Assembly: GCF_000015505.1 (NCBI RefSeq)
Contig: NC_008757.1
Coordinates: 186,001 to 250,000 of the forward strand
DNA: 64,000 nucleotides
Reading direction: 5' to 3'
Source of the DNA: Polaromonas naphthalenivorans CJ2
GTDB lineage: Bacteria > Pseudomonadota > Gammaproteobacteria > Burkholderiales > Burkholderiaceae_C
The notes under the pieces are model-generated. The model was not told the origin of the DNA. It saw nothing but the letters and a program-made list of their open reading frames with translations, and made no database searches. Made by a program: the position numbers and the translations under genes. Below, one piece after another: positions 10,531 through 49,003 of this stretch (positions are counted from its first letter, which is position 1; each line of letters starts with the position of its first letter).

Positions 10531-10634
10531 CTCACCCTTCAGGTGTGTTTTCTTGTGGCCTTGGCGCAAGGCCACAAGAAAGCAATCGCTGTGCTGTTTT
10601 TTAACATCCTCCAATGAGGAAAGAAAGCATCTGT
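10531..10634 (+). promoter_or_regulatory. Tandem-hairpin leader of the DUF2591-like gene
   Basis: Stem 1 is CACC/GGTG; its 3' flank GTTTTCTTG opens stem 2, TTTTCTTGTGGCCTT pairing with AAGGCCACAAGAAA. After a short spacer comes CTGTTTTTTAAC, stem 3 CCTC/GAGG, and the GAAAG Shine-Dalgarno ten bases before ATG 10635. Confidence 0.65.
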
Positions 10635-11126
10635 ATGCCAGCAACAAACAAAGCAATCGATATCCGAACTTGCGGAAAGTCAGACCATCAGGAAATCAAG
10701 GAAGCCCCCGACCAACTGAACCCCGGCCAAACTATTAAAGTCAAAACCAGTGAACTCATTGGTGCAGCCTTCAATTGGGCGGTAGCGAAGTGCGAAGGTT
10801 ATGAGGTGGAGCTGTCACCTGACTGGTATGCCCCAACTAACTGCGCAATCAAAGCCTCTTACGCTAACGGCATCTGCCTAAGGTGGGTGCATAGTGGCGA
10901 GTGGTCACCCGCCACCAACTGGAACCAAGGTGGGCCGATCATGGGGCGGGAAGGAATTACTACGCGCTGTATTGGTCGAAGTATTTTTGGCTTCTTGTGG
11001 GATGCAAGCACATACGGCAATGATGAAGAGATAGTGGGTTACACCCAGCTCACAGCCGGCATGCGGTGCTATGTCGCGTCCAAGCTTGGTGACGAAATTG
11101 CAATCCCCTACGAACTCATGCCGTAG
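10635..11126 (+). CDS. DUF2591-like phage/plasmid protein
   Basis: A 163-residue protein with IKVKTSELIGAAFNWAVAKC near residue 35, NWNQGGPIMGREGI in the middle and GMRCYVASKLGDEIAIPYEL at the end. These three blocks are the signature of DUF2591, a family of unknown function common in prophages and plasmids (KVKTSEL, QGGPI, MRCYVASKLGD). The ATG at 10635 sits correctly behind the leader's Shine-Dalgarno; an in-frame ATG at 10614 overlaps stem 3 and is unlikely. Function unknown. Confidence 0.75.
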   Translation: MPATNKAIDIRTCGKSDHQEIKEAPDQLNPGQTIKVKTSELIGAAFNWAVAKCEGYEVELSPDWYAPTNCAIKASYANGICLRWVHSGEWSPATNWNQGGPIMGREGITTRCIGRSIFGFLWDASTYGNDEEIVGYTQLTAGMRCYVASKLGDEIAIPYELMP

Positions 11127-11211
11127 ACGATAGATATGGAAAGACAGGTCACAACAATGTGAATGCGAAAAAAATCAAGCCGCATGAACATGGCATTTGA
11201 AAATCATTGCC

Positions 11212-11236
11212 AAAAATCCTGCATAGCAGGGTTTTT
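11212..11236 (+). terminator. Probable intrinsic terminator after the DUF2591-like gene
   Basis: AAAAATCCTGC-AT-GCAGGGTTTTT forms a six- to ten-pair stem followed by a T run, about 90 bases after the stop codon. Confidence 0.6.
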
Positions 11237-11334
11237 GTATGAATTGCTACTCTCTGGTGTTCATGTCAAATTGGAAAGCTGCATGCAAATCTATTTGTAG
11301 CAAGCAATCCGACAAATCACTACACGCAGTGTAA

Positions 11335-11438
11335 TCCCTTCACAAGAGGGCTTGCCGATATGCCCAATGGACATAACGGCAAGCCTTGAGCTTGATCCCT
11401 TTTTAACTACTCCATTTTGGAGAATGAAAGGGAAAGCA
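11335..11438 (+). promoter_or_regulatory. Tandem-hairpin leader, PRTRC-type stem 2 (copy A)
   Basis: Stem 1 CCCTT/AGAGGG; stem 2 GGCTTGCCG.../...CGGCAAGCC with inner TATG/CATA; spacer; CCTTTTTAAC; stem 3 CTCCA/TGGAG; GAAAGG. Stem 2 is almost the same as in the leaders at 12044 and 18407, with inner-pair covariation. Confidence 0.75.
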
Positions 11439-11918
11439 ATGCAAACCAATAACGTCTCTAAACCGTCGTGGAACATCACTAACGGCGCTATTGAGCCCAA
11501 CAGAACCCTCGCTGCACTTCTGGTGCAGCAGCGTTTTCTGAATGAAAATTTGCTTCCGGTCAAGACAGGTCTTGTCGGTGCAATCCTGGCACGCGAGTTT
11601 GTCTCTAATCCTGAACTTTCATTGTTCAAGGTTGAAATTTATCTGAAGTTCGGAACTACCTACAGGCTGACGGTAGAAAAATCCCTGAATCTGATGGGCC
11701 AGGAGGCTCCTTTTGATTTTCAATTGGAAATGACCGACGACGATGAGATCGAAGTTTTGTTCAAGGCATTCGAGAAAAATCACTTCGGAGTCGTGGAAAT
11801 CGAATGCAGGCGCGATGACATTGCGAGCTTGCTGGGTTCCGGCGAATGGATCAGCGGAAATGAAGCTTTCGAAAAGTTCTTTCCCGGCCTTGCAGGTGCA
11901 AGCGCACAACCACACTGA
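11439..11918 (+). CDS. Unknown protein, paralogue of the 18507-18968 product
   Basis: A 159-residue acidic protein beginning MQTNNVSKPSWNITNG. It aligns along its length with the protein at 18507-18968: shared KPSW, VGAILA-FV-NP, LF-AF, EI-C-R-DIA-LL and EAF-KFFP blocks. The two genes bracket the PRTRC cassette and share the same leader hairpin, which implies a duplication and common regulation. The start at 11439 follows GAAAGG; an upstream in-frame ATG at 11352 lies inside stem 2. No enzymatic motif is visible. An adaptor or regulator of the cassette is a guess. Confidence 0.7.
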   Translation: MQTNNVSKPSWNITNGAIEPNRTLAALLVQQRFLNENLLPVKTGLVGAILAREFVSNPELSLFKVEIYLKFGTTYRLTVEKSLNLMGQEAPFDFQLEMTDDDEIEVLFKAFEKNHFGVVEIECRRDDIASLLGSGEWISGNEAFEKFFPGLAGASAQPH

Positions 11919-12043
11919 ATGACCACGGCTTAACCGCCTGGGCATTCGGCAATGGCTGAAGCTGTCGAACCGCACAACTTAAAACTTGTGCGGGTTGTCA
12001 ATCAGAAATTTGGCTAGCTAAATAAATCACAGTATTAAAAAGC

Positions 12044-12154
12044 AACCCTCTCACGAGGGGGTTTGCCGTTATGCCTTCCGGACGTAACGGCAAGCCCATG
12101 CGCTTGCGCCTTTTTCAACCTTCCCTTACTTGGGAAATTTAAAAGGAGTTTCTT
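12044..12154 (+). promoter_or_regulatory. Tandem-hairpin leader of the PRTRC operon (copy B)
   Basis: Stem 1 CCCTC/GAGGG; stem 2 TTTGCCGTTA.../...TAACGGCAAG with inner G-C pairs; spacer GCGCTTGCGC; CTTTTTCAAC; stem 3 TTCCC/GGGAA; AAAAGGAG before ATG 12155. It is the 5' region of the whole PRTRC operon. Confidence 0.75.
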
Positions 12155-13906
12155 ATGGAAAAAGCTGAATCCGTGACTTCGGGCACGCCAGCAAGAATCG
12201 CGGTCAATTTGATTGATCGGGGAAACAATCCGCGTACTCGGTTCGATGAGACTGCAATGGATGAAATGGTCGCGTCTTTTCGTGCCCATGGCATCCTCCA
12301 GCCCATCCTTCTTCGCCCCAGTGGTGAAAGTCGCTTTCAGATCATTGCCGGTGAGCGTCGCTTTCGCGCGTTCACAACGGTCTACGGCATGGGCGTGGAC
12401 ATTTCCATTCCAGCATTGGTCGTGGAAATGGACGATGCACAGGCAGACATGAGTGCGTTGATTGAAAACGTCATTCGGGAAAAAATGACGCCGGTGGAAG
12501 AAGCCGAAGCGGCCGCACGCGTCCTGGGGTACTCACAGGGTGATCGGGACGAAGCAGCGCGCAAACTGGGCTGGGAACGCAAGTTTCTCGACCGGAGGAT
12601 TGCCCTGATGTATGCGATTGACGAAGTACGTCAGGCGCTGCAGGATGAAAAAATCCTTCTGGGGCATGCCGAACTGCTGGCAGGCCTGCGCAAGGAAACA
12701 CAAAAACAGGTGCTCACTGCCTTGCTTTCCTCGGCTGAAAAGCCAACGGTCGCGCAACTCAAGGATCGGCTGGAAAAGGCGGCGCTTTCGCTGGTAAAGG
12801 CAATTTTCGAGAAATCGCAATGCACCGACTGCCAGCACAACAGCGGAAATCAGCAAGCACTGTTTGCAGAGGCCATCAGCGACGGTAACTGTACGCACAA
12901 ACCATGTTTTGAACGCAAAACCGAACGCGAACTTGGAATTCGTGCCAGAGCGCTGGAGGCTGACTACCAGGTCGTTCGTATTGTTTATCCAGGTGACAAC
13001 TTCACGGTTGTTCAACTGGCTGCCGATGGCGTGCGGGGCGTTGGTCAAGAGCAAGCCGCGGCCTGCCGTAGCTGCAAAGACTACGGCGCCGTGGTGAGCG
13101 CTTTGCCTGACAAGCTCGGCGCATCCTTCAAGGGCATGTGCATGAACACGGTTTGCAACAACACAAAGGTTGCAGACCGGATCATGGGAGAGAAGGCGGC
13201 TGCGTCGGCCTTGGCTGACCAGACCATTGCCAAGGCCCAGGATGACACGAAAGCTAAGGCCAAAAGCCCAAGCCAAGCCGCAACCAGTGCCAGTGAGGTC
13301 AAGGCCGGGACATCCAAAGTTCAAACCGGTGCCGTCAAGGCGCCGGTGAGTTCGGAGCCCAGCAATGCACTCAAGGAATACCGAGAAAAGGTATGGCGTT
13401 CGGTGCTCAGTCGGGTAATTGCCCGGTTGGATCCTGAAACCAATCAGTGCGTCATGCTTGCCCTGGCAGCATTCAGTCCTCGCGTGATCGATTCAACTGC
13501 ATTGCTTGAGGCAATTACCAAATCGTCGATCCTGCTGCAAAACAATGCAACGGATATCGGCGTGGTACTCGACAGCGCCATGGCGCTGGACAACGATGCT
13601 CTGAAAAAGGCGCTCAGCCTGATTCCGGCAAGCATCTCCAAGGATCTGGAAATCCGCCAGGTTGTGAGCCTTCTCAAAGGGCTTGACGTGAAGCTCGAAG
13701 AGCACTGGAAAGTCAACGATGAAATGTTTGGCCTCCTGACCAAAAATGAGATTGACGCCACTTGCGGCGAAATCGGCATCAAGGCAGCTATCGGCACGGG
13801 TTATCCCAAGCTGATCGGCGGCAAAAAGGACGATCTGGTGAACGCCATTTTGACCATCACCGGCTTTGAATACAAAGGCCGTATCCCAAAACAAATGCGC
13901 TGGTAA
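12155..13906 (+). CDS. PRTRC system ParB-family protein
   Basis: A 583-residue ParB-like DNA-binding protein. The ParB/Srx N-terminal domain spans about 15-110 with the IAGERRFRA box at 65-73; a helix-turn-helix region follows (residues about 110-165). A cysteine-rich segment (about 221-330; CTDCQHN, CTHKPCF, CRSCKDYG, CMNTVCN) suggests zinc binding. After an alanine/lysine-rich linker comes a C-terminal domain of about 180 residues ending KGRIPKQMRW. This architecture defines the ParB of PRTRC (ParB-related, ThiF-related) cassettes. It leads the operon and has no adjacent ParA, so classical ParAB partitioning is not implied. Confidence 0.92.
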   Translation: MEKAESVTSGTPARIAVNLIDRGNNPRTRFDETAMDEMVASFRAHGILQPILLRPSGESRFQIIAGERRFRAFTTVYGMGVDISIPALVVEMDDAQADMSALIENVIREKMTPVEEAEAAARVLGYSQGDRDEAARKLGWERKFLDRRIALMYAIDEVRQALQDEKILLGHAELLAGLRKETQKQVLTALLSSAEKPTVAQLKDRLEKAALSLVKAIFEKSQCTDCQHNSGNQQALFAEAISDGNCTHKPCFERKTERELGIRARALEADYQVVRIVYPGDNFTVVQLAADGVRGVGQEQAAACRSCKDYGAVVSALPDKLGASFKGMCMNTVCNNTKVADRIMGEKAAASALADQTIAKAQDDTKAKAKSPSQAATSASEVKAGTSKVQTGAVKAPVSSEPSNALKEYREKVWRSVLSRVIARLDPETNQCVMLALAAFSPRVIDSTALLEAITKSSILLQNNATDIGVVLDSAMALDNDALKKALSLIPASISKDLEIRQVVSLLKGLDVKLEEHWKVNDEMFGLLTKNEIDATCGEIGIKAAIGTGYPKLIGGKKDDLVNAILTITGFEYKGRIPKQMRW

Positions 13907-14060
13907 CAGCAATTTTTTGACTCCCTGACGTGTCCGGTGCCCACAAGGCACTGGACGCGCTCATTCAATGCGCCGGTCCCCCGGTGCCCTGCAAATTCCC
14001 ATGTCTAGTGCCCAACAGCACCAGGCATGTTCTTTATTTTTCTTTTAAAGGAATACGAAA

Positions 14061-14546
14061 ATGTTTTTCAAAGCAATCGCGCCTACGTGCGCCAGAGGTA
14101 TCAGCTTCACCATCCTGGTTGAGGCTGCTGATGACGGAAAACTCGCGGTCAGCGTTACTCCCGTTTCGAAAACGGGCAAGAGTGGTTTTGGCCTCACGCC
14201 AAAGCAATTCGTCGCCACACCTGAGGAGTTCGACAACGAATTCAGCAGTGTGATGGCAAGCTTTGCTGGAATCCAGCAAACGCTGGCCCAACAACTCAAC
14301 GCCGCCGAACTGGTGGCCGAGGAAGTGGGCAAAGCGGCCGTTGCAGCAGCTGCGGAACAACCCAAAGCGACTTCGCCGGCATCCAAAAGCCTTTCGCGGC
14401 CAAAGAACAGCAATCAGGCTCCGGCCGGACTGCTCGACGAGGATGGTACTCATGATGAAGGTGAGGGCGAAGAAGAGCCAGGCACTACCGTGCCTGTTGC
14501 TGTGCCAGCGCCCGCTGTCACCAGCGGTTTTGATTTTGAAATGTAA
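14061..14546 (+). CDS. PRTRC system protein E
   Basis: A 161-residue protein beginning MFFKAIAPTCARGISFTI, with ISFTILVEAADDGKLAVSVTPVSK and FVATPEEFDNEF in its first half, as in PRTRC protein E. The second half is low-complexity alanine, lysine and glutamate-rich and ends GFDFEM. AAAGGA precedes the ATG. It lies 154 bases after the ParB stop; that gap contains G/C-rich inverted repeats (around 13932-13960), possibly a processing or attenuation structure. Biochemical role unknown. Confidence 0.85.
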   Translation: MFFKAIAPTCARGISFTILVEAADDGKLAVSVTPVSKTGKSGFGLTPKQFVATPEEFDNEFSSVMASFAGIQQTLAQQLNAAELVAEEVGKAAVAAAAEQPKATSPASKSLSRPKNSNQAPAGLLDEDGTHDEGEGEEEPGTTVPVAVPAPAVTSGFDFEM

Positions 14547-14559
14547 GGAGACGCACACC

Positions 14560-14769
14560 ATGGCACTCATTGCAAAGACTATCAGCCGCACCTTCAAGTT
14601 CAACGGCATGACTCTCGCCGACCCAAGCCCGGAAATGGATATGGAAACTGTGAAGCGTTTCTACGCCAATCAGTATCCGGAACTTCTCAATTCCGTGGTG
14701 GAAGGGCCGGTGACCAAAGGCACTGTCTCGACTTACACCTTTATCCGCGCTGTCGGTGCAAAGGGATAG
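14560..14769 (+). CDS. PRTRC system protein C, ubiquitin-like (Prok_Ub) protein
   Basis: A 69-residue protein beginning MALIAKTISRTFKFNGMTL, with the family block FYANQYPELLNSVVEGP, ending in FIRAVGAKG, so glycine is the last residue. PRTRC protein C corresponds, as I recall, to the prokaryotic ubiquitin-like beta-grasp family; a C-terminal glycine is what an E1/E2 system would need for conjugation. AAGGAG lies eight bases before the ATG. It sits 13 bases after protein E in the operon with E1-, E2- and JAMM-like genes. Confidence 0.85.
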   Translation: MALIAKTISRTFKFNGMTLADPSPEMDMETVKRFYANQYPELLNSVVEGPVTKGTVSTYTFIRAVGAKG

Positions 14770-14778
14770 GTTCCTGGC

Positions 14779-14976
14779 ATGGCCGTCTCGATGATCGAAG
14801 CGATCAAAAAAATGGCCCTTGGCTCCAGCGATGCTAAATCGCTGTTCCATGGGATGACTGAAACTGAAATCAAGGAGAACATCGCATGCTCGACCGTTAT
14901 GAACACGGTCGTGAATTCGAATGTGACCCGGAATCCGCTTCCCTTGTCACAACAAGCGTTCGGAATCTGGGGGTAG
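14779..14976 (+). CDS. Small unknown protein inside the PRTRC operon
   Basis: A 65-residue frame between protein C and protein F, starting MAVSMIEAIKKMALG and ending SNVTRNPLPLSQQAFGIWG. The composition and the NPLPL...AFGIWG tail look like a real conserved small protein rather than a shadow. If real, protein F should start at 15000 rather than at 14886, which removes a 91-base overlap. No domain is recognised; AAAGGGA lies 12 bases upstream. Confidence 0.5.
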   Translation: MAVSMIEAIKKMALGSSDAKSLFHGMTETEIKENIACSTVMNTVVNSNVTRNPLPLSQQAFGIWG

Positions 14977-14999
14977 TAGCACAGGGCAATCAGGGGGGA

Positions 15000-16046
15000 A
15001 TGTGGGTTTTACCCACTTTCTCTCCTGAAATACCTCTTGAAATCAGTCGGGCTGACGCTGAAGCGTCAAACCTGGCTGATTTCATACTGCTCGCACACAA
15101 AAAGGGAATTCGCATTCCCGACTCGATATACACGACCACAAGCGAACTCATGACCCAGCAATTTGCAAACTATGCAAGAAGCCAAGTCAAAAATGTGAGA
15201 GTTGAGCTACCCCTGGATGTGTCGATCGTGGCAATCGATAAAAAAATCGAATTTGCCGCGAATGCCACCGACAGATTTCAAGGTATCTATCAATTGAAGG
15301 ATTCTGTTGAGCGGCTCAATGCCGCTTCACCTGGCCTGGGTTGGTTTATTACCGACACGATTCGCAAGGGGCATGGCGTAGGACTGACAACTTACGATCC
15401 ATGCCGCATTGCCAATTGCGTGCAACTCATTTGGTTTGATTCAGAAACAGACCAAGAAGCAGCTGCTGAAGTGCTTGACATAGATGAAAAGAATGTCACT
15501 GAAGCGCATATAGAACAGGCACGCGATGAGCGGACTTTCATGCCTTCAGACTTTTTGGCTTCCGTCGGTGGACATAAACATCTGCTGTCCTGGAGCCAAA
15601 CGAAAAAAGAGAAAGCGGCATGCCGCTCAATGAGTGCTTCACGTGTACGTGCCTGTATTCACAAACTCAAACTTGTGGAGGCAGACCGTGCGTTGGTGAT
15701 GGCCGCTCTGGAGTTTCACGACTCTATCAAGGTGCGAAAAGCTAACGCTGCTATCGCTCCGAATGGCTGGTTTGAGCATGAGAATCTTCATGAATTCGAA
15801 TGTTTGGACGCGCTGGGTTCTCTGGCGTTCATCGTCTGGGACGATTCAGAATTTGCTCGTGAAGCGATCACTCATTATGAAGAATACGCGATGAACGGCG
15901 AGGGCAGTCATTCGCAACTAGTCGGTCTTTTCGTCGAACTAGATGAACCCGCAAGCTGGGGTCCATTTATCGATGCCTACAAGCTGTATATCAAACGATA
16001 TGCGGCATTTTCAAACTTCATAGGGGCTTTGCCCGAGGAAGAATAA
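15000..16046 (+). CDS. PRTRC system protein F
   Basis: Protein of 348 residues from ATG 15000 (MWVLPTFSPEIPLEISRAD), preceded closely by GGGGGG. The frame is open upstream to an ATG at 14886, which would add 38 residues (386 in all), but that extension overlaps the small gene before it, and PRTRC F proteins usually begin near the LP-x-F/I-P block. The body has the conserved ...DTIRKGHGVGLTTYDPCRIA and ...CRSMSASRVRACIHKLKLV segments seen in PRTRC F. The function is unknown. It ends two bases before protein B, so the two are translationally coupled. Confidence 0.8.
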   Translation: MWVLPTFSPEIPLEISRADAEASNLADFILLAHKKGIRIPDSIYTTTSELMTQQFANYARSQVKNVRVELPLDVSIVAIDKKIEFAANATDRFQGIYQLKDSVERLNAASPGLGWFITDTIRKGHGVGLTTYDPCRIANCVQLIWFDSETDQEAAAEVLDIDEKNVTEAHIEQARDERTFMPSDFLASVGGHKHLLSWSQTKKEKAACRSMSASRVRACIHKLKLVEADRALVMAALEFHDSIKVRKANAAIAPNGWFEHENLHEFECLDALGSLAFIVWDDSEFAREAITHYEEYAMNGEGSHSQLVGLFVELDEPASWGPFIDAYKLYIKRYAAFSNFIGALPEEE

Positions 16047-16048
16047 AT

Positions 16049-16846
16049 ATGTTGATGGTTCAAGCATCCGCGAACTCGACAACCATGGCCTTGCAAAAGG
16101 CCATTCTTGTTTATGGCGTGGCAAAAAGAAATCTGTACGATCCTGATCAGTCATTGGCCATAACCCATGCCACGATCAATGATGTCGAAATGAAGTCCGG
16201 TGCTCCCGTACTGAAGGCTGGACGTCTGATGACGCAGTCTGATCTGAATGAACTCGTTACAGGCTTATCGCAATCGCAGTCGCTTTCGGTTCCTTCGTGG
16301 ATCGATACCACGATGCTGGCACTGGGCGCGGGTCGCATGATCTGGTACACGCCGGCATGCCAGCGGGCCATGTTCTTCAAGACTTCTTCGTTTACGAAGG
16401 ATACTTTTGAAGCGCAAGGTCAGCTGCCAACGCCGGGGCTGGTCTGGCTGGTGATGCAGGGAGCCTTGTATGTTTACGCATACAAGGGCTCAGGCAGGCC
16501 TGACAAGGAAACCAAGCTGTATCAGGCTCCATTCTTCAACGTGTGGAGCCAAGGTAAGGTCTGTACCGGCAATGCTGCCATGCCCGTGGGGGATAACGCA
16601 GCGATCCCCCACATGTGGGTGGATGCCTTCTTCGGAAGCAATTTCACGCATCCGAACTTCAAGGAAAAGGACCGCCTTGTGAAAGGCGTGTGCCCCATCG
16701 ATTTCTGGAAAGCCATGACGGAAAAACCTCTCCCGGTATTTCCTGAAGGCCGCCTGGTGGATCTGCCCCTCACGGTGGCCGACCTGCTGGCGCCGGACTT
16801 GAACCAAAAGCTTGGGAACATCGACCGCGCCGCTGGAGAATTCTGA
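16049..16846 (+). CDS. PRTRC system protein B, E2-like
   Basis: A 265-residue protein. The central block LVWLVMQGALYVYAYKG, then RPDKETKLYQAPFFNVW and GKVCTGNAAMP with Cys172, matches the PRTRC B / prokaryotic E2 family D layout in which the cysteine is the predicted thioester site. The ATG overlaps the end of protein F by a two-base gap, and its stop overlaps the start of protein A (TGATG). In the operon it would take an activated protein C from the ThiF-like E1 and pass it to a target; this is inference from the family, with no target visible. Confidence 0.85.
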   Translation: MLMVQASANSTTMALQKAILVYGVAKRNLYDPDQSLAITHATINDVEMKSGAPVLKAGRLMTQSDLNELVTGLSQSQSLSVPSWIDTTMLALGAGRMIWYTPACQRAMFFKTSSFTKDTFEAQGQLPTPGLVWLVMQGALYVYAYKGSGRPDKETKLYQAPFFNVWSQGKVCTGNAAMPVGDNAAIPHMWVDAFFGSNFTHPNFKEKDRLVKGVCPIDFWKAMTEKPLPVFPEGRLVDLPLTVADLLAPDLNQKLGNIDRAAGEF

Positions 16847-17490
16847 TGAATCTCGATCAGATCACGATGGGGGTTTTTCCACTTCTGGCCGCTTCGCAAA
16901 CGGGTGTCCTTCAAGACCCCGAAAAGCACGGCGTTCGGTATGTGGCGGCAAGTGACGGTATGTGGCGTGCCATTGACACAGCGTGGCTTAAAGCGCTGAC
17001 GCCGGTGGCGCTTTCCTCCAAAAAGGCTGTGATTCCCTATGGGCGCTTGACGCAGTCTGTTGAGTTTCTCTGCAGCATGCCGCCGGCAAGCTTGTGGCGT
17101 GAATTTGCTGTACTGGCCAAGTCAACGCTTCCCAATGAGGTTGCAGCTGCCATGGTCTGGAATGCAGAGCAAGACACTTGGCGCCTCGCTGCCAGGCAAA
17201 GCATCGAGGCCAATCCAGGCTTTGTGCGTTACCGCGAAGTCGAGCTGCAAGAGGGCGAGCATTTTGTCGTGGACATTCACAGTCACGGCAACCACTCAGC
17301 CTTTTTTTCAGAGACGGACGACTGTGACGATTTTGGAAGTACCAAAGTCAGTGCGGTGCTTGGATGCGTGGGTCAGGGAGCAACGCAAGTTCGTATCCGA
17401 CTCATGCTGATTGATAAACACATCGACCTCAAACTCACTTGTTCCGGCGGGTGGGAAGTACAGGAAGAAAAACAGGAAATCATTCTATGA
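16846..17490 (+). CDS. PRTRC system protein A, JAMM metalloprotease-like
   Basis: A 214-residue protein. Its C-terminal half has VVDIHSHGNHSAFFSETDD, an exact HxH-x7-SxxD JAMM motif (His145, His147, Ser155, Asp158), preceded by the expected hydrophobic strand. JAMM/MPN+ proteins are zinc isopeptidases that process or remove ubiquitin-like proteins, so here it would mature or deconjugate protein C. Start and stop both overlap the neighbouring genes (TGATG and ATGA), so translation is tightly coupled to proteins B and ThiF. Confidence 0.88.
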   Translation: MNLDQITMGVFPLLAASQTGVLQDPEKHGVRYVAASDGMWRAIDTAWLKALTPVALSSKKAVIPYGRLTQSVEFLCSMPPASLWREFAVLAKSTLPNEVAAAMVWNAEQDTWRLAARQSIEANPGFVRYREVELQEGEHFVVDIHSHGNHSAFFSETDDCDDFGSTKVSAVLGCVGQGATQVRIRLMLIDKHIDLKLTCSGGWEVQEEKQEIIL

Positions 17491-18332
17491 AACATAAAGT
17501 TCATCCAGAGCTTATCCGGCGTGCGATTAACGTGGTCGTGATAGGCGCCGGTGGAACGGGCAGCCGCGTGATAGAAGGGCTGGCTTGTCTGCACCGCGCC
17601 ATCAAAGCCAAGGGTCACCCCTTTGGCCTGAAGGTGTCGGTCATCGATCCGGACACCGTCTCGGAGGCAAATGTCGGGCGTCAAGCTTTCTATCCCTGCG
17701 ATGTGGGGCATTCGAAGGCGCATACGCTGGTCAACCGGGTGAACATGGCATTGAACGGTGAAGCGGTATGGACCGCATACTGTGAGATGGTCACACTTCA
17801 AACAGATTTGTCCAGTGCCGATATTGTCATTGGCGCTGTAGACAACCGCAAGGCTCGTCTGGCGATCCTGAGGTCGCTTGAGAATGTCAGTTCGGGCAAC
17901 CGGTACTGGCTGGACCTGGGGAACCGGATATCGGATGGCCAGGTGATTTTGGGTGAGGTTACTTCGCGCAAGCGAAAAACTGACGACCCAGAGCGCCTGC
18001 CCCATGCCGGCGAACTGTATCCAGAGCTGATTGATCCGGCAATGGAGCCTAGCGATGATGTACCGTCATGCTCGCTGGCCGAAGCGCTGGAAAAGCAGGC
18101 TTTGTTCATCAATCCTGCGGTTTGCGTTCAAGCTATGAATTTACTGTGGCTCTTGCTGACCAAGGGTGAGCTTGAGATTCACGGTGCGTTCATCAACCTG
18201 GAGTTTGGAACCGTGTTACCGCTTCGAGTCGATCCCCAACAATGGGCGAGATTCGGTGTGGTACGTAACGGAAAAAGACAAAAGGTTGTTCGGCCTTCTG
18301 CGCAGAAAATAAAGGCGGCTGCTACTGCGTGA
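17487..18332 (+). CDS. PRTRC system ThiF-family (E1-like) protein
   Basis: A 281-residue Rossmann-fold adenylating enzyme. The nucleotide loop is VVVIGAGGTGSRVIEG (GAGGTGS at 20-26); the acidic/arginine block is VIDPDTVSEANVGRQ (53-66); the candidate catalytic cysteine is Cys195 in DVPSCSLAEA. This is the E1-like subunit that would activate the C-terminal glycine of protein C. I chose ATG 17487 because it overlaps the protein A stop by four bases (ATGA); the frame is open upstream for only 16 codons. It is the last gene of the PRTRC operon. Confidence 0.92.
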   Translation: MKHKVHPELIRRAINVVVIGAGGTGSRVIEGLACLHRAIKAKGHPFGLKVSVIDPDTVSEANVGRQAFYPCDVGHSKAHTLVNRVNMALNGEAVWTAYCEMVTLQTDLSSADIVIGAVDNRKARLAILRSLENVSSGNRYWLDLGNRISDGQVILGEVTSRKRKTDDPERLPHAGELYPELIDPAMEPSDDVPSCSLAEALEKQALFINPAVCVQAMNLLWLLLTKGELEIHGAFINLEFGTVLPLRVDPQQWARFGVVRNGKRQKVVRPSAQKIKAAATA

Positions 18333-18506: not shown

Positions 18507-18968
18507 ATGTCATCAACTGAGCAAATTGAAAAACCATCTTGGGTGGTTGGTTCGAGCGGTAAATTCAAATCAAATGCCGCGCTTGAAAACGTTTTCGAGA
18601 ATGAAAAGTTAGTTCAACGTCAATTGGCCTTGGCAAACTTGTCTATGGTTGGGGCCATATTGGCTTATCAATTCGTCGCAAACCCAAAACTGCATGTCTT
18701 CAGGATCGAAGTCGAGAAAGTGGCCCGTTCCTTTTGTGAGGTTACGCTGGTTGAAGCATTCGACGCAAGTGGAAAGCCAGCCAGAGCCCCATCGATAGAA
18801 AAGTTAGAAAGCGATGAGGCTCTGAGTCTTTTCACAGCATTCAAAGTTAACGCCAATGGAGTTGCTGAAATTCAGTGTGGGCGTGAATCTATTGCAGACC
18901 TGCTCAAGATCGAGACTGCAGTCAATGGTGCAGAAGCATTTCACAAGTTCTTCCCCGACTACGCATAA
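18507..18968 (+). CDS. Unknown protein, paralogue of the 11439-11918 product
   Basis: A 153-residue protein beginning MSSTEQIEKPSWVVGSSGKF. Shared blocks with its paralogue include KPSW, VGAILAYQFVANPKL, a central VE-x-F-D region, LFTAFKVNANGVAEIQCGRESIADLL and EAFHKFFPDYA. It lies directly after the PRTRC operon while the paralogue lies directly before it, each behind the same leader type. The start at 18507 follows GAAAGG; upstream in-frame ATGs lie in the leader stems. No function is apparent. Confidence 0.7.
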   Translation: MSSTEQIEKPSWVVGSSGKFKSNAALENVFENEKLVQRQLALANLSMVGAILAYQFVANPKLHVFRIEVEKVARSFCEVTLVEAFDASGKPARAPSIEKLESDEALSLFTAFKVNANGVAEIQCGRESIADLLKIETAVNGAEAFHKFFPDYA

Positions 18969-19126: not shown

Positions 19127-19300
19127 TCGGGGTGTTTGATGTTCAACCTTTCATGTACAGTGTTCAGGTTGAAGTTGGCTTTCCAATGTGGCTTGTAGTG
19201 AATATTGGAAAACTTTTTTAACCGCTTTTTATAAAGCATGATTTTTTAACCCCAGGGCGACAAACCCTGGGGTCTGTCGTTCCTTCTATGGAGAAACGAC
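19127..19300 (+). promoter_or_regulatory. Tandem-hairpin leader with extra stem
   Basis: Stem 1 CCCC/GGGG (19129-19140); stem 2 GGCTTTCCAAT/ATTGGAAA with a long loop; a first CTTTTTTAAC at about 19213; then ATTTTTTAAC followed by ACCCCAGGG/CCCTGGGGT and a final GTCGTT/AACGAC stem that encloses GGAGA just before ATG 19301, so the Shine-Dalgarno itself could be hidden. Confidence 0.55.
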
Positions 19301-20035: not shown

Positions 20036-23000
20036 GTGAAAAAACCTAAAGTAATTTCCGTCAACCAAATGTCCTTATTTGGCGACGTTATTGAAATTGA
20101 GGAGCCGCCAGCGTCTGTAGCGGTCCTCAAACCGGTTGCAAAAGCCGTAGAAACGCTGACTAAGCGCCGGGAGATGTTTGTTCTGGAAAGCAAATACTTC
20201 GCTCAGCTGACCGGGCCTGCAGCCAAGGTGAAAGCCAACCTGGCAGCCGTCAAAATGGCCATGCAAGGTGGCAAAAAATCGCTTGAAGAAAAAGCGGTCA
20301 TCGTAGCCTACAGCGGCTGGGGTGGCATTTCTGCCATGTTTGCCGATAACGGCGATTTCGAGGCCCAGCGGCTTGAGTTTCTGGAAATGGTCGGTGAAAA
20401 ATCGTATGCACAGGCCCGCGACAGCGTGCTGACGGCTTACTACACCGAGCCAGAAGTAATCCAGGCCATGTGGGGACTTGTCCAAAAGATGGGTTTCAAG
20501 GGCGGAAAAGTCTTGGAGCCCTCGGCGGGAACAGGAAACTTCATTGGTGCCATGCCTGTTGCCCTGCGGGAAGCTTCGACCATCACCATGGTCGAGCCTG
20601 ACAGCGTTAGCGCAACGATCTGCAAGGCGCTCTATGCGGACTCTGATACGTTGGTTCACACCTGCGGAATGGAGATCGCACCGCTGCGCAGCGAAAGCTT
20701 TGATGTGGTCATCGGCAATGTGCCTTTTGGGAACTACCGGGTTCATGACTCGAAGTTTGATTGCATGAAGCTGGTAATCCACGACTACGCGATTGCAAAG
20801 TCACTGGACCTCGTGCGTGCCGGCGGCATTGTGGCCGTGATCACCTCAACGGGAACGATGGACAAGCCGAAAAGCAATTTTCGCGAGTACATCGCTGAAC
20901 GCGCTGATCTGGTGACCGCTATTCGTTTGCCATCGGGTGCATTCACGCGCCTGGGTGAGACGGATGTGGCGACTGACATTCTTGTGCTTCGTAAAAAACC
21001 AAAAGTTGCTGACTCTCATGTGGGTCACGACTTCAAGGTGGCTGAAGTGATCAAGTTGCACGAGTTCGGCAACATGAATGAGCGCAGTTATGACACGATC
21101 AATGCGTTCTATTCACAGAACCAGCGCCAGCTCCTCGGAATGCCCAAGGCCAGCACAAACCAGTTTGGTGCTTGCCTCAAGTTCGTGCCGGAGTTGGCCT
21201 GGGGTGAACAACTGAAAACCATGTGCAGCGATGCGACGTTGGACGGTTGGTACACGCACGAGGAACGCAAAGAAATTCGTGAGAATTTCGTGGCCGACAT
21301 GAGCGGCTTGAAAACCATGGTGGCCAGCGGCTTTTTCTTTGACGATCAGGGTCAGCTGTATTACATGACCAACCAAAACGCTGAAAGCCAGGCCCATTTG
21401 CCTGAGCCGAAGCGTCGGCGGATTGAAGGAATGACGCATATTCGAAATTGCGTCGTGGAACTGCTGGAGTTGGATTCGGTGGGTGCGAACAGCACCTATG
21501 AACGCGCCAAACTCAACCGCTTGTATGACGCATTCGTTGTGAAGTACGACTACCTGATGAAGCCGTATAACCGGCGCCTGTTCAGCCTGGACAGCCATGC
21601 GCCGCTTTTGTGGTCGCTTGAGCGCTACGATGACGAAAATGAAAAGGCCGTGAAAACGGATATTTTCAGCAAGTCAACCGTAAGCGCTGCGGTGCTGTCT
21701 GATACGGCTGAATCGCTGTCCGATGCGATTGCCCTGTCTTACAACCGCTTCGCGCGGCTGGACCTGGCATTCATGGCCAAGGCCTTGTCGCTCGGTGAGG
21801 ACGAGGTGGTGCAAAAGCTGCTTGACGCTAACCGGGTCTTTTTTGATCCAGAAAGCAGAGAGTATGTGGACTCCGAGGTCTATCTGAGCGGCAAGGTGCT
21901 CGAAAAGCTACTTGTCGCCCGTGCGGCTGCAGAAGGCGACGAACGTTACATGCTCAATGTTGCTGCCCTTGAAGCGGTGGTGCCGGCAACGGTGCCGCTG
22001 AGCAAGGTCAGCATCCAGTTGGGTGTGCCATGGATCGGGCAAGAGGATGTGCAGGCCTTTGTCGATGAAATCGTGACCCTGGATGCCGAAAAGGTCCAAG
22101 ACTACAACGACATTAAAGCTGTGACAGTTACGCAAGTGATTGGCATGGCAGTATGGTCGGTGACGATGGGGAATCGATTTCAAAAGGAAACCAGGTATAG
22201 CGGTGATTGGGGAACAGCGCATAGGCCATTTGATGACCTGCTGAGCGACTTGCTCAATCAGCGCAGCACCACGGTTTACATGGAAATTGAAGTCGAGCCG
22301 GGCAAGACAAAGCGCATCGTTAACAAGGACGAGACGCTGGCGGCACGCGACAAAGCCGAGAAGATCCAGGCAGCATTTACCTCATGGGTCTATGCAGACC
22401 CGGAGCGTGTCCAACGGCTGGAGTTCACCTACAACAGCAAATTCAACGGGACACTCAACCGTGAATTCGATGGCGCGCACTTGGTGGTGCCGGGGCTGAG
22501 TTCGGCTGTCAAGCTGCGCTCGGACCAACTGGACGGCATTTGGGCCGGTTTGATCGGCGGCAACAAGCTTTACGCTTATGCCGTGGGTGGCGGCAAGACG
22601 CTGATTACCATTTGCCTTGCGCAGATGATGAAGCGTCTGGGTTTTGCCAAGAAGCCGACCATCGTGGTGCCCAACCACATGCTTGAAGAGTTTGCGGGAC
22701 AGTATGCGAGGGCTTTCCCTCGTGCACGAATCCTGGCGGCCAGTAAAGAAGACCTGGAGGGCGACAAGCGCCGGGTACTGATGATGAGATTGGCAATGGA
22801 GGATTGGGATTGCATCATCATCACGCACGGTTCGTTCGGAAAAATTGCACTCTCTAAACAAGTTGTACAGGATTTCGCAGACGAGGCCGGTGAAAAAATC
22901 GATGCCATGATCTCAGGCTCGGATGATCGGAACGTGGTGCGCGAGGCCGTTCGGCAAAAGAAGACTGTCATTGCGAAAGTGATGGCGCTGGCTGAAAAGG

Positions 23001-24998: not shown

Positions 24999-25055
24999 AC
25001 AACACCCTCACAAGGGGTGTTGTAGTCGCTGCTCTGCAAGAGAGCAGCGACTACA
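24999..25055 (+). terminator. Two adjacent perfect stems after the methyltransferase/helicase gene
   Basis: CAACACCC/GGGTGTTG is immediately followed by GTAGTCGCTGCTCT/AGAGCAGCGACTAC (14 bp, five-base loop). It matches stems 1 and 2 of the recurrent leader, but no CTTTTTTAAC or GAAAGG follows, so it is a truncated copy or a tandem-stem transcript end. Confidence 0.5.
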
Positions 25056-25148
25056 GCATCCACTGATTCGAGAACTGGAGTGGAAAAGCGGTGAAATAAA
25101 CTCTTTATTCAGTTCGAATTTCGCTGTCACGACATTGATGATGGCGTC

Positions 25149-26023: not shown

Positions 26024-26109
26024 TTGTTTTTCCTGTTTTGTTTAACAGGAAAACCCATTGGTTTTGCCTTTCTTAACTCGCTAAGTTATTTAGCACGAAA
26101 GGTAGTGTC
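26024..26109 (+). promoter_or_regulatory. Tandem-hairpin leader of a 29-codon gene
   Basis: Stem 2 GTTTTTCCTGTT/AACAGGAAAAC (26026-26054); CTTTCTTAAC; stem 3 GCTAA/TTAGC (26080-26094 region); GAAAGG, ten bases before ATG 26110. Stem 1 is weak here. Confidence 0.6.
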
Positions 26110-26821: not shown

Positions 26822-26923
26822 TGCTCCTTCTGGGGCTTTCTTTTGCCACCAAGTAAAAGAAAGCCCCATCAGGGCAACACCTTTTTTAACTCGGCCCAAG
26901 TTGGCTAAAGAAAGGTATTTTTT
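26822..26923 (+). promoter_or_regulatory. Tandem-hairpin leader of the DUF932 gene
   Basis: Stem 1 GCTCC/GGGGC; stem 2 GGGGCTTTCTTTT/AAAAGAAAGCCCC; CCTTTTTTAAC; stem 3 GCC/GGC with a CAAGTT loop; AAAGAAAGG eleven bases before ATG 26924. The best-preserved example of the whole architecture. Confidence 0.75.
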
Positions 26924-29109: not shown

Positions 29110-29204
29110 AAGGCCCCTCAAGGGGCTTTGCTATGCCATCCCAAGGCATAGCAAAGCCTGAAGTTTTTAAGCGCTGTGTATTCAGCAAAACTTCAAAGGG
29201 AAAT
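29110..29204 (+). promoter_or_regulatory. Tandem-hairpin leader
   Basis: Stem 1 GCCCCT/AGGGGC; stem 2 GGCTTTGCTATGCC/GGCATAGCAAAGCC (14 bp); GTTTTTAAGC replaces the usual tract; stem 3 GCTG/CAGC; AAAGGGA before ATG 29205. Confidence 0.7.
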
Positions 29205-31534: not shown

Positions 31535-31655
31535 AGCGCCCTGGGCGCTTTTTTTCTGCCCGCTCGAATGCTTTGCTGTGCCGCCAGGTAGATCTAAGCG
31601 CTCAGGTGCTTGAAGTTTTTTTAACACCCTGTATTGGGAAAGAAAGGTTCAAAAA
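31535..31655 (+). promoter_or_regulatory. Leader copy followed by a two-codon frame (orphan)
   Basis: A terminator stem AGCGCCC/GGGCGCT with T7; a stem around TTTGCTGTGC; GTTTTTTTAAC; stem 3 CCC/GGG; AAAGAAAGG; then ATG AAA TAA. The gene it once served is gone; the toxin-antitoxin pair with its own promoter follows. Confidence 0.6.
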
Positions 31656-33109: not shown

Positions 33110-33250
33110 ATGTACGAATGGAATTTGATCACACTATGGGCCATCCGAAAAATTACGTGGAGAACTGTTGTGTTCGCTTTGCGATCACGGCCTCCTGCAG
33201 TGTGTGGCCGGGGGGGCTCTTACGTTGTTGATCCAGAACTTGACTATTGA
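33110..33250 (+). CDS. Possible 46-residue peptide
   Basis: ATG 33110 after GGACAGAAAGAAAAC opens 46 codons (MYEWNLITLWAIRKITWRTV...) to TGA at 33248-33250. The stop lies within the left arm of the inverted repeat at 33245, so the repeat may have truncated a longer gene. Tryptophan-rich and basic; weak evidence. Confidence 0.3.
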   Translation: MYEWNLITLWAIRKITWRTVVFALRSRPPAVCGRGGSYVVDPELDY

Positions 33251-33337
33251 TCCGGCCCTCGGAAGTTTGAACACTCTTGGCGCGTTGCCGGAGGAGGCCT
33301 GTTGTGACAATTTAAACTTCCAAGGGCCGGATCAATA
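33245..33337. repeat. MITE-like long inverted repeat flanked by TA
   Basis: Arms TTGATCCGGCCCT...GGAAGTTT (33247-33268) and its complement (33314-33335) pair over 22 bases with one mismatch; a 45-base loop separates them and a TA flanks each side. Size, long terminal repeats and TA flanks resemble a miniature element mobilised by an IS630/Tc1-type transposase. Confidence 0.5.
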
Positions 33338-33389: not shown

Positions 33390-33485
33390 CAAACCCCTTT
33401 CGAGAGGTTTTCTGATGTGTCTCTATGGACGCATTAGAAAGCCTCTGGTTTGGCCCTTTTTTAACAACCTGTAATGGGTAATTAA
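33390..33485 (+). promoter_or_regulatory. Orphan tandem-hairpin leader
   Basis: Stem 1 AACCCCT.../GAGAGGTT; stem 2 GGTTTTCTGATG(T)GTC/GACGCATTAGAAAGCC; CCCTTTTTTAAC; stem 3 CC/GG with TGTAAT loop; then TTAAAAAAG instead of GAAAGG and no gene. A convergent terminator follows at once. Confidence 0.6.
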
Positions 33486-40029: not shown

Positions 40030-40148
40030 CTAGTGGGTCAGTTGGCAACGGCATCGGCATTCTTGTCGCAACTATGGTCTCGGTCACAGGGGGAGTAGCA
40101 CTTACTTTCCGCAGGGAATGCTGGTTTGATTGCCAACTGACCCACTAG
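40030..40148. repeat. Second MITE-like long inverted repeat
   Basis: Perfect 19-bp arms CTAGTGGGTCAGTTGGCAA (40030-40048) and its complement (40130-40148), 81-base loop. A TA lies two bases in from each outer end, so the boundary could also be TA-flanked, as at 33245. Confidence 0.5.
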
Positions 40149-40194
40149 CGCGCCACTGAAGCCAGCACGGCGAAAATTCGGCACGGCAAGACAT

Positions 40195-41317: not shown

Positions 41318-41341
41318 AAAGATCGAGTTCGACCGATTTTA

Positions 41342-42844: not shown

Positions 42845-42879
42845 TGCCGTAATCAGCCGGAAGGCTTCTTGCGCAAACC

Positions 42880-46252: not shown

Positions 46253-46263
46253 GGAAATACGGA

Positions 46264-46953: not shown

Positions 46954-46959
46954 TGACTC

Positions 46960-47088: not shown

Positions 47089-47102
47089 ATTTATATGAGG
47101 GC

Positions 47103-47189
47103 TTGCCCTCAAAAGAACTCATCCGAGTTTTTTTGAGGTGGTCATTCCATCTTCGATCCTATTTTCTTTAACTAAAGGATTCGAATTTC
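47103..47189 (+). promoter_or_regulatory. Tandem-hairpin leader (compact form)
   Basis: Stem 1 GAGGGC/GCCCTC; stem 2 CTCAAAAGAACTC/GAGTTTTTTTGAG; TTTTCTTTAAC; AAAGGATT before ATG 47190. Stem 3 is reduced or absent. Confidence 0.6.
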
Positions 47190-48113
47190 ATGTCATCACA
47201 ACCTAAACAACCAGCCATCGAGAAAATCTTCCAGATCATCGCTCAGATGACCGGATTCGTCATTGCCACCCTGGTGAACTTCGTCAAAACAGTTTTCAAG
47301 GAAATCGTTACATCAGAGGAAAAACTGATTGATGAAGCTGCCCTGAAGGCCAGCCCCATGCAAACTGCTCAGGCAGTGTCAGAGGGGGGGCATTCAAGCA
47401 CAGTTCCAGAAGCCATTGCAATCGAAGTTGCGGTATCCCACTTGCAAATGCACAGCGGTGTGATCAGAGACGCATCAACCAAGGTCATAAAGCTAAGTTT
47501 ATTTGCGGGCTCAAACCCTCGCATTGAACGCCTGCTGAGTGTGCCTTGCGAAAAGTTGCATTTTCAACGCATCAACTGGCGCTTTGATCGGATTCGGCTT
47601 TCTCATTTCACACCTGAGAAAGCAGCGAAAAGCGATTTGCCTTTCAACTACGAAGGTGCCAAGAAATATTCGCTTGCGGATTTCGATGCAAAAGCCCCAC
47701 ACGGTCACCTGTCCAAGCAAGTTCAAAATTTTGCTGAGATACCTTTCTTATCCAAGGGGGGGTCTCCTGAAAAAGTTAGTTCTCAAGAGGAACAGACGGA
47801 CAACTCAGTTACATCGCCAACAGGCTGTGTGACTGAAGCAGAAGGGACAGTTCTCAGTGCCAGCTCGGTGGTAGTTGCTCCTGAAGGAAAAGCGGAATAC
47901 AGGAGTTTTGCGGTCGTTTTATCTACCGCAACAGGTGATGTGACGTTTCAAGGTGTCGATCTGGAAGTGCAATTCAAAAAATATCACTATTCCATTGGCG
48001 ATCTGGTCAGTATCAAAAAATCTTCCTCGAAATTCGAGTTCACGAAACCCAACAAGAAAAGTGAAACAAGAACAAAAAACGTTTTCATCATTACTGTTCT
48101 TAAAAAAGCGTAG
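47190..48113 (+). CDS. Unknown protein
   Basis: A 307-residue protein. An N-terminal amphipathic stretch (FVIATLVNFVKTVF) is followed by a long acidic/polar region; the C-terminal 90 residues include DVTFQGVDLEVQFKKYHYSI, reminiscent of the GVDL-x-GD repeats in plasmid mobilisation and transfer proteins. That resemblance is weak. It directly precedes ssb. The leader gives its start. Confidence 0.6.
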   Translation: MSSQPKQPAIEKIFQIIAQMTGFVIATLVNFVKTVFKEIVTSEEKLIDEAALKASPMQTAQAVSEGGHSSTVPEAIAIEVAVSHLQMHSGVIRDASTKVIKLSLFAGSNPRIERLLSVPCEKLHFQRINWRFDRIRLSHFTPEKAAKSDLPFNYEGAKKYSLADFDAKAPHGHLSKQVQNFAEIPFLSKGGSPEKVSSQEEQTDNSVTSPTGCVTEAEGTVLSASSVVVAPEGKAEYRSFAVVLSTATGDVTFQGVDLEVQFKKYHYSIGDLVSIKKSSSKFEFTKPNKKSETRTKNVFIITVLKKA

Positions 48114-48179
48114 CCATAACTGCGCATTCAAACCATCCGGCTCTAGTAGCCGGTTTTTAATTCACTAGGAGAAAAAACA

Positions 48180-48824
48180 ATGGCATCAGTCAACAAAGTA
48201 ATCATCGTGGGTAATCTGGGCAAGAACCCTGAAATGCGGAGTTTCCCAAGTGGCGACCAAATCGCCACTGTCACTATTGCCACCACCGACAAATGGAAGG
48301 ACAAGCAGTCCGGCCAGATGAAGGAAGCCACCGAATGGCACCGTGTGGTATTCAACGGCCGTCTGGCAGAAGTTGTCGGCCAGTACCTGCGCAAGGGCTC
48401 GCAGGTCTATGTCGAAGGCAGCCTGCGCACCCGTAAATGGACCGACCAGAGCGGCGTTGAAAAATACACCACTGAAATCCGCGCCGACCAGATGCAAATG
48501 CTGGGAAGTCGCCAGGGTAATGACAACGCCGGCCATGGACAAGATGACGGTGGGGGATATGGTCAGGATGACGGTGGCGGGTATGGGCAGCATCATGGTG
48601 GAGGGTATGAAGAACCTCGCCAGGCTCGCGCACCAGCTCAACGCCCGGCATCAGCACCTGCACCGAGGCCACAAGCACCGGCGCCACGGCAATCAGCACC
48701 GGTACCGTCTCATGCTTCCAGCGGCTTTGACGATATGGATGACGATATTCCTTTTGTCTGTGGGTCCATGTTTTACGACATGACCACCAGCAAATCAAGA
48801 AAGATGGCCCGTTACGACTACTGA
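48180..48824 (+). CDS. ssb: Single-stranded DNA-binding protein with a C-terminal extension
   Basis: A 214-residue SSB. The OB fold (1-105) starts [20 protein letters not shown] and contains [21 protein letters not shown]; a Gly/Pro-rich linker with tandem DDGGGYGQ units follows. The usual acidic tip DDDIPF (187-192), which recruits partners through its free C-terminus in E. coli SSB, is not terminal here; another 22 residues ([16 protein letters not shown]...) follow. AGGAG precedes the ATG. Confidence 0.9.
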
Positions 48825-48897
48825 TCCGTAAGCGTCAAGTTCCAATCGCCTGCGATTGGCCTTGATGTGAACGCTGAAAAGAAACTGCTATGCAGTG

Positions 48898-49003
48898 CAA
48901 ACCTCTCGGGGTTTGCTTATCCGCTTCGTCGAGCGGATAAGCAAAAAACCGAGCAAGGCACGGGTGGTTTTCAAACAAACCCCTTTTTGGGAAAGGAAAC
49001 CAA
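48898..49003 (+). promoter_or_regulatory. Tandem-hairpin leader of the primase-like gene
   Basis: Stem 1 AAACC/GGTTT; stem 2 TTTGCTTATCCGCT/AGCGGATAAGCAAA (14 bp); CCCTTTTTGGGAAAGGAAA merges the tract, a small CCC/GGG stem and the ribosome binding site before ATG 49004. Confidence 0.65.

Follow-up and report, generated by a model that had tools for sequence, protein, structure and literature searches.

Introduction

At several genes of the phage T4 replicon, the Shine-Dalgarno (SD) sequence is buried in a hairpin at the ribosome site. The attenuators of amino-acid operons consist of mutually exclusive pairings that follow one another in the order 1:2, 2:3 and 3:4, and the sib site of phage lambda is an example of retroregulation by RNase III. 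Here we describe a structured leader that is repeated in front of many genes within a stretch of 64,000 nucleotides of Polaromonas naphthalenivorans CJ2 (assembly GCF_000015505.1, contig NC_008757.1, positions 186,001 to 250,000, forward strand), which we call the window and number from its first letter. Each leader has an upstream module of alternative stems (module I) and a terminal hairpin that holds the SD in front of the start codon (module II). Unlike the T4 hairpins, the leaders share one covarying consensus, possess a second, upstream module and occur in many copies per replicon. The pairing order in module I is that of the amino-acid operon attenuators; unlike those, most leaders lack a good 3:4 terminator and the SD hairpin then follows.

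Several other described systems invite comparison. On the island of the gonococcus that encodes a type IV secretion system (T4SS), parA is expressed more than 10-fold higher in E. coli, and about 400-fold higher in the gonococcus, once the stem-loop strands that occlude its SD and AUG are deleted, according to the available part of that study (PMC8716806), which supports the principle that an SD-occluding hairpin restrains translation. Like the 5' untranslated regions of parA and traH presented in that part of the paper, the leaders described here are located on a T4SS-bearing mobile element and hide the SD and start codon, and traH likewise has alternative two-stem and single-stem forms. The gonococcal island differs in that, in the same portion of the text, two leaders are reported and not called one family (the comparison is by description), and in that the alternative fold of traH frees the start site, whereas the states of module I leave SD access unchanged. 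The Frpo/ssi hairpins also lie 5' of plasmid establishment genes, several per plasmid. Frpo elements, however, carry -35 and -10 boxes according to PMC11541004, while the leaders have none beyond chance, end at the SD and carry mRNA-strand wobbles in hairpin 2.

Results

A leader of two modules with covarying stems

Sequence and folding place the parts of the leader in the 5' to 3' order P1, P2, P3, P4, P5, inner hairpin, P6 and start codon. P1 and P2 form stem 1, P2 and P3 the long hairpin 2, and P3 and P4 a further alternative stem. The CTTTTTTAAC box corresponds to P5 and the GAAAGG box to P6; the CCUUU of P5 pairs with the AAAGG of P6, and YAAC follows P5 in 50 of 75 leaders (mean of 9.7 in shuffles). 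A preliminary description of this DNA had proposed three stems, with a near-invariant box between the second and the third. The design is indeed repeated. However, one strand is contested by stems 1 and 2, P4 is present as a fourth segment, the box is not single-stranded because its CCTTT part pairs with AAAGG, and the proposed stem 3 is merely the inner part of the terminal SD hairpin, the outer part of which contains the SD.

A covariance model, R1, combined 13 leaders of the window with 7 from the Polaromonas sp. P1-6 plasmid (L003), and a second model, R2, was used alongside it in searches. In the alignment of these 20 first-model leaders, 84.2% of the cells were paired, compared with 66.0% when partners were shuffled, and double-change cells numbered 79 (25.5 shuffled). 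With 58 leaders, double-change cells rose to 248 against 70.9. Because alignments A4 and A7 are fitted to the structure, which boosts pair counts, leaders outside the models weigh more. Twenty such leaders (12 from Hydrogenophaga aromaticivorans, 5 from Polynucleobacter and 3 from Noviherbaspirillum malthae), which are not a blind sample because they were picked by model score, had 90.8% paired cells (71.1% shuffled) and 89 double changes (25.7 shuffled). Sliding the partners by 1 to 3 columns reduced the paired cells of this set from 90.8% to 54.4% or less.

Pairings were also permuted within each plasmid in a set of 75 leaders (the 57 best of the 112 rows of A5, and 18 of the 20 of A7). The observed score was reached in 0 of 2000 permutations for each of P1:P2, P2:P3, P3:P4, P5:P6 and the inner stem, whereas the control pairings P1:P4, P2:P6 and P3:P5 reached it in 1023, 310 and 1502 of 2000, respectively. 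For 21 further matches, permuted as one set (10 from B. contaminans and 11 from other parts of the Polaromonas plasmid, with at least 2 weak, probable non-leaders kept in), the same 5 stems gave 0, 0, 1, 0 and 0 of 2000, compared with 950 for P3:P5 and 1881 for P1:P4. Compensatory change exceeds both the shuffled and the slid controls, also outside the models. The leader is a conserved RNA structure, as had been proposed from the covarying arms of stem 3.

Predicted burial of the Shine-Dalgarno sequence in module II

The last hairpin, which carries the SD in its 3' strand, comprises the CCUUU/AAAGG outer stem, a YAAC-type internal loop and the inner stem. The outer stem covaries even where the SD register is shifted, with GCGTC/GACGC in locus L040 and CTCTCC/GGAGA-type pairs on the B. 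contaminans plasmid. The predicted probability that the SD is unpaired had a median of 0.205 for 64 leader genes and 0.475 for 26 other genes, which were hand-picked and include some with doubtful starts (p 0.0012). In 64 of the 75 leaders an open reading frame (ORF) of at least 45 codons begins within 16 nucleotides, with ATG as the start in 60. The plasmid of B. contaminans LMG 23361 (391,552 bases) contributed to no model and carries an annotation made by others; when both its strands were scanned with R2, 14 matches were obtained at E <= 0.05, and all 14 end 2 to 8 nucleotides before an annotated coding sequence start on the same strand. About 0.4% of strand positions on this plasmid (414 annotated features) are so placed. 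In the predicted folds the SD is paired within a conserved hairpin whose distance to the start codon is fixed. Among the regulatory, processing and translational roles suggested in the preliminary description, translation control has the strongest support, since this last hairpin contains the SD.

The same hairpin could be read as one of a series of FourU-type RNA thermometers, in which warming melts the pairing between the SD and a U-run, and in many leaders the SD does pair with CUUUUU or CCUUU. Warming from 25°C to 37°C, though, barely raises the predicted median SD accessibility (0.18 and 0.205, respectively), the outer stems of B. contaminans are GC-richer, and module I would be left without a role. 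We regard thermometers as highly improbable.

Mutually exclusive pairings in module I

P2 and P3 each have 2 partners, and P1:P2 (with P3:P4) excludes P2:P3. The P2:P3 pairing has about 13 model pairs and covers the stem 1 strand and its U-run; hairpin 2 spans 30 to 58 nucleotides. Between the 2 states, the median difference in computed energy is 2.4 kcal/mol, with 37 of 75 leaders within 3 kcal/mol and 63 of 75 favouring the long hairpin. By these computations module I is bistable, with 3 exclusive pairings that are each co-adapted. P1:P2 stems are stable in most of the 62 examined, and at least 5 T of 8 bases stand behind stem 1 in 33 of 75 leaders. A plain terminator does not seem to explain stem 1, because 42 of 75 lack a good U-tract, and a terminator plus an independent hairpin was rejected as a full account since the strand is shared and the U-run is missing in these 42.

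A trp-like attenuator would assign the pause to P1:P2, the antiterminator to P2:P3 and the terminator to P3:P4, followed by the U-rich P5. The exclusive pairings 1:2, 2:3 and 3:4 are present in that order and all co-adapted, and some P3:P4 stems score as terminator-like (31595, 46309 and 40230). P3:P4 is nevertheless a weak, short stem that a gap separates from the U-run, this run is only CCUUUC in many leaders, and the conserved SD hairpin would be left unexplained; we judge the attenuator quite unlikely. Alternatively, module I could be an RNase III processing or retroregulation site that separates the mRNA of one gene from that of the next, with the SD hairpin just protecting the new 5' end. 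Such a site would suit the extent of P2:P3 over the stem 1 strand and U-run and the mismatch that it often has at a fixed place (26 of 78), but P2:P3 is short for RNase III, and we consider this explanation unlikely.

Forcing either state of module I left the predicted SD access of 64 leaders unchanged (median difference 0.0, Wilcoxon p 0.31; secondary structure only). A direct switch from module I to module II is unsupported because the state of module I does not alter predicted SD access, and at this level of structure a riboswitch with a coupled expression platform, in which the upstream fold alters SD access, failed over the same 64 leaders. An SD-freeing switch through P3:P5 or P2:P6 was rejected, these pairings being no better than permuted ones, as was a long cruciform through P1:P4, which is not co-adapted. 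Like the leaders, tisB mRNA, which relies on standby translation, has a sequestered ribosome site behind upstream structure, as presented in the available part of PMC7708055. The leaders differ in that the long-hairpin state leaves their spacer a little less accessible (median 0.37 vs 0.44); a standby-site switch is unsupported and was rejected, as accessibility shifts the wrong way.

Strand bias, promoters and operators

With its mismatch position excluded, hairpin 2 has 65 wobbles in the sense of the mRNA strand (GU, UG) and 11 of the mirror kind (AC, CA). The excluded position, number 9 of the stem, is a recurrent mismatch: it is not Watson-Crick in 26 of 78 leaders, with A.C in 14 of 78, C.A in one and G.U once. 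There, A.C (14) against G.U (1) points opposite to the wobble bias for the mRNA strand.

Sigma-70 scores, calculated from letter frequencies, were at chance (mean z of -0.30 in leaders, -0.11 in the 75 bases upstream and -0.26 inside ORFs). A sigma-70 promoter inside or upstream of the leader was rejected, there being no enrichment, also in a promoter scan of 2 stretches of the window. Operators were considered too. The few AcaCD sites given in the available part of PMC4207636 form a GCCC-GGGC-type palindrome with near-fixed spacing, whereas hairpin 2 spans 30 to 58 nucleotides; an AcaCD/FlhDC-type operator was rejected on this ground, and so was a dimer operator in general.

Leaders in the window and the home genome

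The preliminary description spoke of about seventeen regions, and its list holds 18 places. R1 recovers 16 of these 18 at E <= 8e-4 in a search of the window, including 3 that are absent from the model (31535, 32488 and 48898, with 31.9, 30.5 and 28.3 bits). The place at 19127 is weak, and the one at 47103 is without a match to R1 (E <= 1) or R2 (E <= 0.05). The leader element is real, with 19127 doubtful and 47103 failing. All the window leaders found with R1 are on one strand, and the pattern TTTTTTAAC-N4-25-GAAAGG occurs 3 times in the window, compared with a mean of 0.00 after shuffling. The leaders and, for the DUF932 gene, their parts are as follows.

10544..10630, + strand, leader of the NinX-like gene (ATG 10635; Pfam NinX), R1 61.7 bits; hairpin 2 and SD hairpin by folding, stem 1 just 5'
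11347..11433, + strand, leader before ATG 11439 (159-residue protein, function unknown), R1 78.9 bits
12058..12148, + strand, leader of the PRTRC ParB gene (ATG 12155; TIGR03734), R1 63.5 bits
18421..18502, + strand, leader before ATG 18507 (153-residue protein, function unknown), R1 60.8 bits
19175..19243, + strand, doubtful leader-like stretch, R1 21.3 bits (E 0.025), R2 23.8 bits (E 0.0018)
26024..26104, + strand, leader before ATG 26110 (short ORF), stem 1 unclear, R1 54.0 bits
26506..26588, + strand, leader with no ORF of 45 or more codons close downstream, R1 62.6 bits
26823..26836, + strand, DUF932 leader, stem 1 (P1:P2), terminator-like in the terminator scan
26832..26867, + strand, DUF932 leader, hairpin 2 (P2:P3) by folding and R1, sharing strand 26832-26836 with stem 1
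26863..26875, + strand, DUF932 leader, P3:P4 stem, terminator-like on the minus strand
26879..26916, + strand, DUF932 leader (ATG 26924), SD hairpin by folding and R1, outer stem 26879-26887/26908-26916, inner stem 26893-26896/26903-26906
29122..29201, + strand, leader before ATG 29205, R1 40.2 bits
31567..31649, + strand, leader whose start is followed by AAA TAA, apparently decayed (from its sequence), R1 31.9 bits
32535..32624, + strand, leader before ATG 32632, R1 30.5 bits
33404..33490, + strand, leader with hairpins kept and, from its sequence, SD and start apparently lost, R1 76.1 bits
40194..40284, + strand, leader of the ParB-like gene (ATG 40289), R1 57.0 bits
41355..41438, + strand, leader before ATG 41441 (weak Mre11 match), R1 59.2 bits
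42904..42985, + strand, leader before ATG 42995, R1 75.5 bits
46273..46365, + strand, leader before ATG 46375, R1 53.8 bits
48908..49003, + strand, leader of the toprim/primase-like gene (ATG 49004; Pfam), R1 28.3 bits, R2 44.5 bits

Two of these leaders appear decayed: that at 31535, with the start ATG AAA TAA, and that at 33390, in which the SD and start codon look to be gone while the hairpins are kept. Inside the PRTRC operon (12155-18329) no R2 match was found, the leader standing at the first gene only. Double hairpins resembling module I, without an SD hairpin, occur right after gene ends at 24999-25065 of the window and at 16721-16766 of L037. Short stretches between inverted repeats of about 20 bases (33246-33336 and 40030-40148) look like small mobile insertions.

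In the home genome (5.37 Mb, 9 contigs), where 150 of 1081 first-look candidates were scored, 19 matches at E <= 0.1 were found, all on C1, the contig of the window (353,291 bases); the other 8 contigs were without a match. Two of these fall at C1:89568-90117, beyond the window, and a weak one is in antisense orientation. The size and genes of C1 suggest that it is a plasmid.

The preliminary description knew of no fitting RNA family, and this agrees with Rfam 15, in which no search gave a match above the gathering score in the leaders. In the window only 2 HEARO matches were found, both outside leaders; 8 matches to positions 9900-50000 at E <= 10 were all far under the gathering scores, and 5 related loci had no match. 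Literature searches aimed at the leader yielded no description of it among the matches listed. A published motif pair of Polaromonas naphthalenivorans, as given in the available part of PMC5217627, was considered and rejected, being different in sequence from the leader. As far as these searches show, the leader family is undescribed in Rfam and in the literature searched, while hiding the SD is a known action.

Distribution among carriers

Genome surveys, made with stricter filters and partial sampling, gave matches at E <= 0.001 in 4 of 399 sampled genomes at family level (R1) and, with R2, in 3 of 399 at order level and 2 of 369 at class level, the home genome included each time. Among loci with DUF932 relatives in named genomes, 4 of 51 had leader matches (L049, which is G377, L050, L051 and L053). 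Eleven genomes or records were then compared at E <= 0.01. Matches numbered 20 in G000, 29 in G385, 16 in G377, 4 in G379, 26 on the Polaromonas plasmid, 20 in Hydrogenophaga, 25 in Polynucleobacter, 6 in Noviherbaspirillum and 10 on the B. contaminans plasmid, and there was none on the records of Acidovorax carolinensis pACP3.1 or Aromatoleum EbN1 plasmid 1. Six of the 9 carriers have 16 to 29 matches, counts that include some weak antisense matches from the near-palindromic module I. The preliminary description suggested that the leader could be an element of PRTRC plasmids. This is not supported: PRTRC_B occurs in 2 of the 8 leader-bearing genomes or records tested, and carriers without it reach 29 matches (antisense included).

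In most carriers, each opposite-strand match among those listed coincides with a higher-scoring one on the main strand. The exceptions are B. contaminans, with 12 matches on one strand and 2 on the other, and Noviherbaspirillum, with leaders on 2 contigs. On the Polaromonas plasmid the leaders flank the TraD gene on both sides. Those of G379 lie on a contig of 3.7 Mb, perhaps in an integrated element.

DUF932 genes have a leader just 5' of the start in the window, Polaromonas, G385, G377, Hydrogenophaga and Polynucleobacter, while those of Noviherbaspirillum and B. contaminans are without one before the start. A leader also precedes the ParB-like genes of the window, Polaromonas and G379 and the primase-like genes of the window, Polaromonas and G385. 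For DnaN-like genes a leader was found in G385 and G377 and none in the window or Polaromonas, and for the SbcC-like gene in G385 and not in the window. NinX-like genes stand behind a leader both in the window (10635-11126) and on the B. contaminans plasmid (L187 1199-2197). A phage element was considered and rejected: the 80 viral loci kept of 581 with a DUF932 relative had no R2 match, 3 viral hits to exact patterns had no R2 match, a third pattern had no viral hit, and blastn of one leader against phage found nothing.

Gene context

The block of leader-bearing units contains PRTRC, DUF932, DnaN-like, ParB-like, SSB and primase-like genes, and is adjoined on its right by transfer genes:

52888..56020, + strand, TraI_2-type protein (52888-54114) and TraD-type coupling protein (54095-56020), by Pfam

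The G385 block also has RadC and a cytosine methylase. The block resembles the leading region presented in the available part of PMC11541004; the likeness stays a suggestion, because oriT was not located and carriers deviate from the pattern.

This context bears on whether the leaders are Frpo/ssi-type single-stranded-DNA promoters, in which the entering strand folds, host RNA polymerase starts on it and establishment genes are made early. The window leaders adjoin TraI/TraD-type genes, lie on a single strand and belong to a block with SSB, ParB-like and methylase-helicase-like genes, to which G385 adds its RadC and methylase. In the accessible part of PMC11541004, leading-region genes elsewhere are one-stranded with Frpo promoters. 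These, however, are described there with -35 and -10 boxes, and sigma-70 scores are not raised in the leaders. The wobbles of hairpin 2 favour the mRNA strand (65 vs 11), the last hairpin is tied to the SD and start codon, the Polaromonas leaders flank TraD, and the B. contaminans leaders lie 12 and 2 on opposite strands. We regard Frpo/ssi-type promoters as a very unlikely explanation.

Further genes of the region were observed as follows. A 1649-residue protein (20036-24985) has weak matches to Eco57I-methylase-like and helicase families, below Pfam cut-offs, and is 48-49% identical to proteins of G385 and G377; it may be an anti-restriction protein like DarB of phage P1. The proteins at 11439-11918 and 18507-18968 are similar in size, have no Pfam match and each stand behind a leader; by eye they are possible paralogues. 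The 2 HEARO RNA matches lie at 56025-56269 and 59182-59424, the first just before a gene for an RRXRR and HNH protein, which we take to be the pattern of IscB with its guide RNA. FlhC/FlhDC-type regulators are annotated on the Polaromonas (L003 30375-30929) and B. contaminans (L193 42877-43811) plasmids; a protein of the window (50732-51274) is 47% identical to a regulator of this type, and the G385 leader contig has a weak FlhC match. FlhDC-type pairs activate the transfer genes of IncA/C plasmids, according to the available part of PMC4207636.

Discussion

The reading that we favour, with some reserve, is that of a replicon-wide cis-regulatory leader with 2 modules on one family of large plasmids or integrated elements of Burkholderiales. 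The leaders would be present in the mRNA. The SD hairpin of module II would keep translation low for as long as it stays closed; what opens it is presumably ribosome activity or a factor acting in trans. Module I, a bistable structure of terminator-like or processing type, probably works at the level of the transcript and sets the units apart: it would end or pause read-through from the gene in front, or offer a processing site. The units would thereby be insulated and separately controlled.

Several points weigh against this reading. Two concern comparisons made above, namely the fitting of alignments A4 and A7 to the structure and the hand-picking of the 26 genes used for SD accessibility. 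Two others concern module I, with 42 of 75 leaders lacking a good U-tract behind stem 1 and with neither forced state altering predicted SD access. Of the 65 mRNA-strand wobbles in hairpin 2, 24 are at one position that also serves other pairings. The mRNA-strand argument rests on hairpin 2, because the wobble excess is small in the outer stem of the SD hairpin (38 vs 25) and almost nil in the inner stem (9 vs 6). Orthologues often, and not always, retain the leader, while its sequence changes. As to a factor acting in trans, CsrA was absent from the 4 genomes searched, cold-shock domains were not on the leader contigs of these 4, and ProQ was not on the leader contigs of G000, G385 and G377; in G379 a ProQ gene is on the same 3.7 Mb contig as the leaders, about 1.75 Mb away from them. 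A plasmid-borne RNA-binding protein of one of these kinds was rejected on this distribution.

A wider version of the favoured reading, which we put forward tentatively and think rather doubtful, is that the leaders form a replicon-wide post-transcriptional regulon. One event, either a plasmid-encoded RNA-binding factor or the state of the plasmid once it has entered a new cell, might open all SD hairpins together and launch the establishment, repair and anti-restriction genes. As a part of this regulon, and with the same doubt, one architecture may have been copied or may have re-evolved many times per element. It is unusual that the leader is repeated across the replicon as a set and that its upstream module is bistable.

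Gene control on plasmids is usually told promoter by promoter, and here one SD-burying leader is common to many units. Its carriers span several genera, it belongs to no Rfam family, and it comes with no enriched sigma-70 promoter. If the leaders share one trigger, they would offer a compact means by which a large plasmid is kept silent and then woken as a whole. The leader gives a search model for this family of plasmids and makes a simple reporter test possible.

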